The position numbers and the translations under genes were made by a program. Shown here piece after piece: positions 21,014 through 61,270 of a stretch of 64,000 nt of DNA. The notes beneath the pieces are model-generated. The model did not search any database, was not told the DNA's origin, and saw only the letters and a list, made by a program, of their open reading frames with translations. The stretch covers positions 3,037,406 to 3,101,405 of the forward strand of contig NZ_SJPI01000001.1 in assembly GCF_007859865.1 (NCBI RefSeq), read 5' to 3'. Source of the DNA: Rubripirellula amarantea (lineage in GTDB: Bacteria; Planctomycetota; Planctomycetia; Pirellulales; Pirellulaceae). The number at the start of each line of letters is the position of its first letter. The stretch's first letter is position 1.

Positions 21014-21500
21014 GCGAATAGATCTCAGATTCTCGTAGACAGGGGGGGTGTCTGCATCGGGAAACCCTGCAAAGTACGGGTGATATCAGAATGTAGGCAT
21101 TCAGAATAAAACTTTGAGACGCAGCGCTGCGAGATACCAAAATGAACGTTATGGGCGTGTTATGTACACATGTCGTGAACACAAGTTCGAGCAAACAAGT
21201 GAACACTTAGTGGCAAAGCGACGCGATCGGACCACTTGTAATTTGTACAGCCCCTTTTGGGATGCGAGAAATCGCGGGTTAGTCGTCCAGCGGAGGGATG
21301 TTCATCGCTTAAGAAACATACAGTCCGAGCTGGCCCCCAGGTAGGTGTTTGGGTGTTGGTCTGGCGAATTAGCTCTAATGGAGGTGATTAGGCAAATTTG
21401 GGTCTTGATTTGGGCATTTGACCCACTACCATCTGGGGGTGTGACACTTGTCCACTCTGGTTCAGACTGATCAGACGACGCCAATTCATTGGGTGATTTT

Positions 21501-58088: not shown

Positions 58089-58689
58089 TTCGCCGCTTAG
58101 CGAGATCAAGTGACAAGCCAAAGGCTCGCCGCAACGGTTCACACAGATGGAATTGAGGAGTTTGCGAGTCGATAGCTCGAGTCCGCCTTTGCCGTCCTTT
58201 GGGATCTCGATTTGATGAAAACTAAGGTAGTTCATGGTCGCCGATACCAAGAACGCTTGCCAACGGTAGCGAATGGTTGATTGCCTTCGTGTCGACCGCC
58301 TTTGTGCTAGCTGCTTTTCGGGAAAGCGAAACACCGGCAATCTTGTCGATCGCCATCCGAACGCATGGGGAGGCGAACTCCACCATGACGCCTTCGGCGA
58401 GGGAAGAGTCACATGAGAGGTTACGCGTGGCGTTTCCTTGCCTGCGAACGGTGTCTCTTCGTCTTGTCACTGTGCTTTGTGGGTTCGTTTTCACGCATGC
58501 CCAAGATCATGCGACCCATGAAACCTTGGGACCAATGAAATCGTAGCTATCACTGCATATAAAAGACGAAGTGTCTTTGTCCTTACGATATTGGCTGCGT
58601 CTGGCCCGGTTCACCAGCGATGACGCGTAGGTTGCCGTTCACTCTTATATCAATGTGATAACGACCCGGATGCCGCCGCGTTCCACGAA
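58089..58689. repeat. gene-free region, possible dispersed repeat at about 58,108-58,500
   Basis: Minus-strand frames 58222-58494 and the overlapping 57861-58412 read as protein-like over part of their length (MVEFASPCVRMAIDKIAG; GGLELSTRKLLNSICV), then switch frame. Protein-like text in two frames with no start suggests a degraded or non-coding dispersed repeat; I cannot compare copies here. The rest up to the tRNA fragment has no gene. Confidence 0.35.
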
Positions 58690-58724
58690 AAAACCCCGCA
58701 AAACGCTGGGTTTTACGGGGTTTT
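58690..58724 (-). terminator. intrinsic terminator of the original tRNA-Val
   Basis: Reading the minus strand, a perfect 9-bp stem AAAACCCCG/CGGGGTTTT encloses a second AAAAC/GTTTT stem, then a run of six T. It lies seven bases downstream of the tRNA-Val fragment, as expected of its native terminator. Confidence 0.85.
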
Positions 58725-58730
58725 CGATGA

Positions 58731-58775
58731 TGGACGATACAGAACTCGAATCTGTGACCTCCACGATGTCAACGT
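58731..58775 (-). tRNA. 3' fragment of tRNA-Val (GAC): attachment-site half
   Basis: About 45 bases on the minus strand match the 3' part of a tRNA-Val: anticodon loop TTGACAT with anticodon GAC, 3' half of the anticodon stem CGTGG, variable loop AGGTC, T arm ACAGA-TTCGAGT-TCTGT, and acceptor ATCGTCC with discriminator A. The 5' half is missing: upstream there is no GGACGAT to pair with the acceptor, and the anticodon stem keeps only three pairs. This is the typical scar left when an integrase inserts an element into a tRNA gene, the fragment being the att repeat distant from the intact gene. Confidence 0.88.
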
Positions 58776-58980
58776 CTCTGCACCTTGCGAGAACAGCGTA
58801 AATTGCGAAGTCAAAAGCAACGACGCCGAATGGTTGCACCACTGGTTGCACCTGATTGCCGAATCGGGTCAAAGGTCGGGCGCTTCGGTACTGGTCGATA
58901 CGATCGCCGAAACGCTAGGGGCCGACGCTGTTGGACGGTTGCTAGATGCTTTGCAAAAACAAGCCAAGGCGGTTGATTGA
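58776..58980 (+). pseudogene. protein-like tail without a start, possible integrase C-terminus
   Basis: The frame is open from 58,624 to the stop at 58,978-58,980 and has no ATG. It first reads through the tRNA fragment (RYRTRICDLHDVNV, known as tRNA-derived text) and then becomes protein-like: SNDAEWLHHWLHLIAESGQ, then VLVDTIAETLGADAVGRLLD. This is what the 3' end of a gene that spans the attachment site would look like once the element is integrated. The integrase beginning at 63,316 reads toward the other att and would join this tail in the circular form (inference). Confidence 0.5.
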
Positions 58981-59823: not shown

Positions 59824-60876
59824 ATGCGCCAAGACTTCATAGATCAAGTCGCTCACCATTGCCATGATGTCCCGCCGGAAGATCGAACTTTCGCCGATTT
59901 GCTTTTGGGAATGCGTTGTATTGAATCATCGAAAAAAGCAGCAATTGAGAGCCAAGAAAAATCAGAGTCATTCCCAGCGAACGATAGAAGCGGCCATCGC
60001 GATTACTACATGCTTGCAGCGATGCGAGAAGATCGTATAGCGAGCAAATTGCTTGGGGACCTTTTGACTTGGCCGGGAGTCGATCGAATCAAAATAGAGT
60101 TTGAATCAAACGGGGACCGATTTTCTTCTGAGTCGTTAATCCGCTATCGGGCCGTTTTTTGCAAGACAGCGAAAATCACAACGATGGATTTCGACAAAAA
60201 GAAAATCTTGGACTTGGCAAGTTTGCTCGATGAAGAAGCTGATAACCCCACCGAGTCGGAAACGGAAAGGCAGTTAGACGTAGTGAAATCTGAACGGATG
60301 CGACGGCAACTTGCAAAGGAAACATCCGCGTTGGCGCTGCAAAAAATTGTTGATTTGATTTCAGTTTCGCAGTCTGGTTTGGTTGGTGTTATGCGGCACG
60401 GAGAGGAAGCGATAACACATTCAAATATGGAGACGAGAACCCACGTTGGAACGTCGCCGCTCAGTTCGACAACTGCACTACAACCCCAAGCATCGGAGGC
60501 CAAGAACGCGACATTTGAAAAGATGACCGCCGATGCGGAGGGCTGTGGTCTATCTGTCGTGCAAAAGCTCGAAAAGATTGTCCCTGAACTGAAAGCCGAC
60601 GCGCCGTTTTGGAATCAAGCCAAGTCTGTGAAAGGAACGTCCGAAGGCACCCTGGCAAATAAGCGTTCCGAGGCACGCAAGCCTGATGGGTTCGGTGATG
60701 AAATCGCAGATGGGACATTCGGCTACCACGTCCCGGTGAACTCGAAAGAAAGGGGTTTTGTTGTTTGGCGATTGAATAAAGGTAAGGCTTACTACCAGTG
60801 CGATGCGACCGGGAAGCATCTGATCTATCCATTAGACTCGCTGCCTGACTCACTATCTCCCTCACTCCCTCACTAG
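59824..60876 (+). CDS. hypothetical protein of the integrated element
   Basis: 350 residues from the ATG at 59824, with AAGGA nine bases ahead. The chain is hydrophilic and helical (for example EETDNPTES-like acidic stretch near 140-150), with no membrane segment. A C-terminal domain (about 290-340, GTFGYHVPVNSKERGFVVWR) has a compact beta character, ending in repetitive PLDSLPDSLSPSLPH. I do not recognise a family. Position suggests an element-specific function such as replication control. Confidence 0.65.
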   Translation: MRQDFIDQVAHHCHDVPPEDRTFADLLLGMRCIESSKKAAIESQEKSESFPANDRSGHRDYYMLAAMREDRIASKLLGDLLTWPGVDRIKIEFESNGDRFSSESLIRYRAVFCKTAKITTMDFDKKKILDLASLLDEEADNPTESETERQLDVVKSERMRRQLAKETSALALQKIVDLISVSQSGLVGVMRHGEEAITHSNMETRTHVGTSPLSSTTALQPQASEAKNATFEKMTADAEGCGLSVVQKLEKIVPELKADAPFWNQAKSVKGTSEGTLANKRSEARKPDGFGDEIADGTFGYHVPVNSKERGFVVWRLNKGKAYYQCDATGKHLIYPLDSLPDSLSPSLPH

Positions 60877-61003: not shown

Positions 61004-61270
61004 ATGACAAACTCAATGATGCCCAAAGCATCAGAGGCGATCGTGGACACTGTTCGCGATGGCCACAAACGAGCAATGATGTCAGTTGATGATGTCGCTG
61101 CCGAACTCGGTTGTTCGTCTCGCCATGTTCGCAGAATGATCGACGGTCAAAGACTACCGAGGCCGATTCGACTTGGGTCGCTGGTCAGAATCCTTCGCTC
61201 GGATTTCGACCGCTGGTTAGCCGATGGCTGTCCAAATGTTCGCAACGCAAGTAAGCGGGGGCGGACATGA
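61004..61270 (+). CDS. excisionase/AlpA-like HTH DNA-binding protein
   Basis: 88 residues from the ATG at 61004 (a TTG seven codons upstream is in frame). The stretch MSVDDVAAELGCSSRHVRRM is a MerR/AlpA-type winged helix-turn-helix, followed by LPRPIRLGSLVRILRSDFDRWL, the family's wing and helix. Proteins of this type often act as excisionases or regulators in integrated elements. It overlaps the next gene by ATGA. Confidence 0.85.
   Translation: MTNSMMPKASEAIVDTVRDGHKRAMMSVDDVAAELGCSSRHVRRMIDGQRLPRPIRLGSLVRILRSDFDRWLADGCPNVRNASKRGRT

Follow-up and report, generated by a model that had tools for sequence, protein, structure and literature searches.

An integrative element in a tRNA-Val gene of Rubripirellula amarantea with a putative attachment site inside its integrase gene and two predicted forms of the enzyme

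The question raised by this locus is whether integration into a tRNA gene changes the C-terminus of the element's own integrase. The window, i.e. the whole stretch of 64,000 nucleotides of Rubripirellula amarantea DNA that was analysed (G000:C1:3037406-3101405; w-prefixed coordinates count from its start, and the genome sequence runs on past w64,000), holds most of an integrative element of approximately 6.2 kb, extending from w~58,731 to w~64,952, in the tRNA-Val(GAC) gene adjoining infC. The right attachment site (att) copy, at w64,861-64,952, matches the left copy (Table 1) over 92 bp at 97% identity without gaps. Approximately 45 bp of this 92-bp block is tRNA and the remainder is a terminator-like hairpin. 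An intact tRNA-Val(GAC) gene, located on the minus strand at w64,908-64,981, overlaps the right att copy, and the element therefore displays the hallmark of tRNA-targeting elements, a direct repeat of the 3' part of the tRNA at both ends with the intact gene at one of them.

An earlier reading of the sequence only had noted a frame lacking ATG at w58,624-58,980, and the frame is indeed open for 118 codons, with its stop at 58,978-58,980. Its passage through the 3' copy of tRNA-Val(GAC) and its protein character beyond that copy were both borne out, and the first part of the frame, 58,624-58,683, proved to be unrelated flanking sequence. The part beyond att, from w58,776 to w58,980, is referred to here as the tail. 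It contains no ATG or GTG, and its only in-frame start codons are TTGs that lie inside or after a 30-bp repeat described below.

The sequence-only reading had further proposed that the integrase of the circular element could read across the attachment site of the circle (attP) into this tail, and that the sequence past 64,000 would decide the matter. This sequence was retrieved, and the integrase stop codon was found at w64,962, inside tRNA-Val. The integrase neither ended well before the right att copy nor entered it in a different frame, because the integrase and the left frame enter att in the same frame, the one that leaves the left copy into the tail. In the integrated state the integrase ends in ...HEKTPQNAGFYGVFGNGRYRTRICDLHDVNV-AL*; translation of the left frame gives ...HEKTPQNAGFYGVFDDGRYRTRICDLHDVNV-SAPCENSVNC...KQAKAVD* (asterisks, stop codons). 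Computed joining of both ends resulted in one open reading frame (ORF) of 613 aa, whatever the position of the crossover within the block. It is therefore very probable, judging from the sequence, that the coding region of the integrase contains attP and that the circle would encode a long form of the enzyme, where the integrated element encodes a short form.

A natural counterpart of the computed fusion was identified on contig JAGQOY010000008.1 (86.7 kb) of the Planctomycetales metagenome-assembled genome HKST-UBA26, on which a single ORF of 582 aa comprises the integrase, a tRNA-Val-like core and the tail. There is no tRNA gene near the fused ORF, and a 70-bp stretch of its att recurs exactly on another contig of the same genome, at a tRNA-Val gene and the contig end. 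The uninterrupted junction could thus belong to a circle or a tandem array, with an integrated copy beside it. The ends of the contig do not overlap, and contig C516 was for this reason rejected as a complete circle. No free circular forms were found in PLSDB, INPHARED or a first scan of IMG/VR; a relative in IMG/VR (L170) runs through a tRNA-Pro, without a tail match.

The integrase is a tyrosine recombinase (PF00589) in which the conserved R, H-x-x-R, H and Tyr motifs are present, and fold searches matched it to XerH, lambda Int and Brujita Int. The catalytic columns TGLR, HA-RH, RHS and YTD are invariant in the alignment, and all of them are upstream of att. In an AlphaFold model of the natural long form, the N-terminal and catalytic part was confident, residues 447-526 were of low confidence, and helices of middling confidence were predicted at 523-543, 547-559 and 563-572. 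When the tail was modelled alone, three helices were obtained at low confidence, and searches for a known family gave no convincing Pfam family or PDB sequence match for it. As predicted from these models and from the joined frames, integration removes a helical C-terminal domain, carried on a disordered linker, and puts a few residues encoded by the tRNA in its place, while the catalytic domain stays intact.

When only the 67-aa tail was used as a tblastn query, 20 of 199 Pirellulaceae genomes were matched, with internal stops only in two weak matches, and a profile search was positive in 24 of 241 genomes of this family. Samples of the order and the phylum, which include some family members, gave no convincing match outside the Pirellulaceae. 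Among 15 tails, followed for as many as 60 codons downstream of att, there was no stop codon in frame, compared with 32 and 34 in the other two frames. The ratio of nonsynonymous to synonymous differences (pN/pS) beyond the repeat, over all pairs, was 0.69 in frame versus 1.00 and 1.18 in the shifted frames, and third codon positions were the most variable; the direction of this difference counts more than its size, because substitutions are near saturation. By these measures the tail is not a chance open frame and its frame is constrained at the protein level, a chance frame being ruled out by the stop counts, the codon constraint and the recurrence.

In order to compare frames across the att block, tails were paired with integrases of the same genome, TBK1r included. 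A few of these pairs span contigs or distant places within one draft genome, and for two genomes (G130 and G112) the frames were taken from a separate att comparison and not from the automatic choice of block. Both halves entered att in the same frame in 17 of the 18 pairs, for which p is near 1e-7 at a chance of 1/3, a generous figure since the elements are related; when distinct tRNA/frame classes were counted instead, 9/10 agreed (~4e-4). Three tRNAs were read in two frames among the elements: Val(GAC) as RYRTRICDLHDVNV or ELESVTSTMST, Pro(CGG) as RFELATSTSRT or DLNLRPLRPE, and Pro(GGG) as GFEPTTSTTPR or DKIRTCDLCTPS. The remaining classes were Ala(GGC), Gly(CCC), Val(CAC) and the disagreeing Leu(GAG). 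In all three tRNAs that are read in two frames, the integrase and the tail change frame together, and such a coupled switch within one tRNA is hard to explain unless a single protein spans the joint.

A test that does not depend on tail homology started from integrases only and then searched upstream for the 3' half of the tRNA. With a tRNA nearby, 33 of 34 integrase ORFs ran into it (30 ended inside it and three ran through), and one stopped before it. At all 15 loci where a left tRNA copy was found, the frame of the integrase was open for 61-96 codons past att. Five loci (L113, L114, L117, L118 and L120) were unmatched by the tail profile and yet carry an open in-frame tail with a similar helix-like pattern at its end; this final helix pattern is all that the divergent tails have in common.

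A second insertion in the same genome, L007 (G000:C2:40000-54000), at tRNA-Val(CAC), provides a negative contrast. Its att copies are located at C2:45387-45433 and C2:48416-48470, and its integrase-like ORF, which belongs to another family, enters the tRNA but has its stop codon within the shared att, so that its end would be unchanged by integration. A transposase-like ORF is present between these att copies.

The 30-bp repeat of the tail, which consists of TGGTTGCACC in tandem, has an exact twin at w64,753-64,782, in the integrase linker beyond the window. It is translated as VAPLVAP in the linker and as WLHHWLH in the tail, i.e. in different frames on the two sides. The two copies within one element match at 21.1 of 22 positions on average, versus 18.5 over all pairs, a value that none of 20,000 permutations reached, and divergent elements carry their own version of the repeat on both sides. 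From their position and co-variation we infer that the paired repeats behave as candidate arm-type sites.

The terminator-like hairpin (CCCCGCAAAACGCTGGGTTTTACGGGGTTTT), at w58,684-58,733 and w64,861-64,903, lies directly before the tRNA core inside the integrase coding sequence and is translated; stretches similar to it recur in relatives. It may terminate the tRNA transcript, and it could also end the int transcript ahead of its stop codon. The infC-adjacent tRNA-Val has no hairpin in two members of the genus (G142 and G193), in which this site is empty, and in others an integrase or integrase remnants are found there; at three loci (L034, L035 and L037), remnants of the C-terminal part of another integrase lie upstream of the left att copy. 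Because the site is hairpin-free in G142 and G193 and others carry integrase remnants, the hairpin to the left of the core and the remnants at the three loci are probably the 3' ends of earlier integrases, and in the window an older related element probably left the hairpin behind as a scar. These remnants indicate that tRNA-Val was used repeatedly, and tandem arrays are conceivable in which the integrase of one element gains the tail of another. One stretch of DNA combines a protein frame, paired candidate arm-type sites in other frames, the hairpin and a match to a host tRNA encoded on the other strand.

The following mechanism is proposed for the element. As read from the sequence, one ORF in the circle would yield a 613-aa long form (Int-L) consisting of the N-terminal and catalytic domains, a disordered linker and a helical C-terminal domain. 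The DNA of the linker would also carry one candidate arm-type site, the hairpin and the tRNA-derived core, and that of the C-terminal domain the second arm-type site. Also from the sequence, recombination with the tRNA gene moves the tail codons to the opposite end of the element, where they lack a start codon. The new C-terminus and stop codon (here 'AL*') come from the 5' half of the tRNA, and the result is a 548-aa short form (Int-S) with an intact catalytic domain. Most probably, Int-L would be the form for integration, its tail aiding assembly of the attP complex or binding a partner. The integrated state would yield Int-S only, which would not readily repeat integration but would support excision together with an Xis-like helix-turn-helix (HTH) protein, and excision would restore Int-L. 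The state of the DNA would set the isoform of the enzyme and bias the direction of the reaction.

We assign a rough probability of 0.45 to the reading in which Int-L carries out integration and Int-S excision. Tentatively, the elements may represent a bacterial integrase family in which recombination exchanges the C-terminal domain of the enzyme, integration and excision being carried out by two isoforms of one gene in two DNA states. Direction might then be set in part by gene architecture, the host tRNA gene giving an alternative C-terminus and stop. Several points weigh against this reading. The division of roles between Int-L and Int-S is our inference, and the sequence is silent on which direction needs the tail; the circle and the long protein in this strain are predictions; the contig with the fused ORF is a low-coverage metagenome assembly; and one pair, that of G193, disagrees, although its integrase ends short of the tRNA and looks broken.

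The same architecture could serve the opposite role if the tail were a brake or destabilising tag that weakens Int-L while the circle exists, comparable to the tag on the repressor of mycobacteriophage BPs, whose integrase is also tagged (PMC4557955). The tail C-termini are mostly polar (KAVD, VADR, SRME, TRKD, AERD, QPMD etc.) and, by inspection, not ssrA-like, and the conserved part is the helical domain and not a terminal tag, which makes this explanation rather doubtful.

Alternatively, attP might lie inside the gene and the tail have no separate function, the ORF running on because any stop ahead of or within att would sacrifice the arm site or the core, and the tail being a tolerated end. 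This explanation is consistent with a linker that must accommodate the arm site, hairpin and core at the DNA level, and with a tail that evolves faster than the body of the integrase (67% versus 86% identity between G000 and G198). However, a stop codon could precede the arm site, as in phage P22, in which 30 bp separate the end of int from the attP core, and the protein-level constraint extends beyond the arm with the frame kept across changes of tRNA; a merely tolerated tail is improbable.

That the tail is non-coding DNA, namely the second arm of attP with a frame open by chance, is suggested by the DNA repeat that both arms share and read in different frames. The stop counts, the pN/pS that is lower in frame only and beyond the repeat, and the frame agreement argue against it, and a pure DNA arm site was rejected since the constraint on the frame reaches past the arm and the pattern of the last helix is the only feature common to divergent tails; this explanation is very improbable. 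It is scarcely credible that the tail is a separate small gene: it has in-frame TTGs, but these lie within the repeat and leave it no usable start, and a natural fusion to the integrase exists. Nor is it credible that the tail was left behind in the chromosome by an earlier integrase, as the scars preceding the tRNA core in the window and at L034, L035 and L037 might suggest, because these account only for the part before the core and the tail to the right of it has the element's own arm repeat, a conserved family and the fusion to the integrase.

Several known systems resemble the proposed arrangement in part. In the archaeal 'suicidal' integrases of the SSV type (SSV, pTN3 and pT26-2), attP lies inside the integrase's own gene and integration splits and inactivates the enzyme; a 2021 review described self-disrupting recombinases as exclusively archaeal (PMC8371274). 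The element described here likewise has a tyrosine integrase with a predicted attP in its own gene. The SSV split, however, parts the N-terminal from the catalytic part, whereas here the catalytic motifs stay upstream of att with the N-terminal part, it is the C-terminal tail beyond the catalytic domain that would be exchanged, and the hosts are bacterial. In mycobacteriophage BPs, attP lies in the coding region of the repressor, and integration removes C-terminal residues that end in an ssrA-like tag (PMC4557955). The form of a protein is tied to integration state through an attP in a coding region in both cases, but the BPs gene encodes a repressor and not an integrase, and the tails found here do not look like such a tag. 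In ICEKp1 and ICEclc, circularisation changes the int promoter and not the protein (PMC13023037); integrase output again depends on the circular or tRNA-integrated state, through the promoter there and through the protein C-terminus here. Phage P22 (BK000583) also has a lambda-type tyrosine integrase adjoining attP and an Xis partner, but its int stop is at 21,353 and the annotated attP core (21,300-21,322) follows 30 bp further on, so that integration leaves the integrase protein unchanged.

No bacterial precedent was found in the open-access literature, and single int 3' ends that overlap attP may exist in subscription papers. The integrases of these Pirellulaceae elements would represent a bacterial, non-lethal self-interruption in which the frame is kept through changes of the tRNA target and even through changes of frame within the same tRNA, and they raise the question of whether a recombinase requires one C-terminus for integration and another for excision.

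The features of the element in the window are listed in Table 1. None of the six element proteins tested against PHROGs matched virion or packaging genes; the matches were to integrase, excisionase/regulator and primase only, or there was no match. A stretch of ~840 bp 3' of the tail (w58,981-59,823) contains no convincing gene and is near the Prim-Pol gene, and is a candidate replication or control region.

Table 1. Features of the integrative element within the window, in window coordinates.
Feature	Position	Strand	Basis or remark
Left att copy	58684..58775	+	92-bp block; tRNA-Val 3' half at ~58,731-58,775, remainder terminator-like hairpin
Headless tail, predicted integrase C-terminal helical-domain codons cut off by integration	58776..58980	+	Conservation, frame constraint, fusion on JAGQOY010000008.1
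Candidate arm-type site, tandem TGGTTGCACC	58827..58856	+	Exact 30-bp repeat; translated WLHHWLH in tail
Element gene, 350 aa, function not assigned	59824..60876	+	ORF; no Pfam, PHROG or NCBIfam match
Excisionase-like HTH protein, 88 aa, candidate directionality factor	61004..61270	+	HTH_17 E 2e-11; TIGR01764 above cut-off; PHROG 66
Element gene, 163 aa	61267..61758	+	ORF; no family match
Bifunctional primase/polymerase, 409-aa frame, uncertain start codon	61948..63177	+	Prim-Pol PF09250 E 5e-25
Tyrosine integrase, 548 aa	63316..64000, on to w64,962	+	PF00589 E 5e-16; stop inside right att / tRNA-Val(GAC)

Some relatives differ in size and content. In G155 (L139-L143, G155:C1:4691000-4785000), the tail and the integrase are ~91 kb apart, and several large ORFs are shared at 23-65% identity with the 87-kb contig G137:C516 (L136-L138, L127 and L128); by eye, some of these shared ORFs resemble genes for helicases or defence. 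Besides 6-kb elements, large cargo islands may belong to the family. At L040 (G138:C1:5851100-5871026), no integrase was found at the locus, and a tail and tRNA-Pro(GGG) flank ~9 kb of large ORFs that are type I restriction-modification-like by eye; this locus is possibly a stranded island, in which the tail is the only trace of the integrase.
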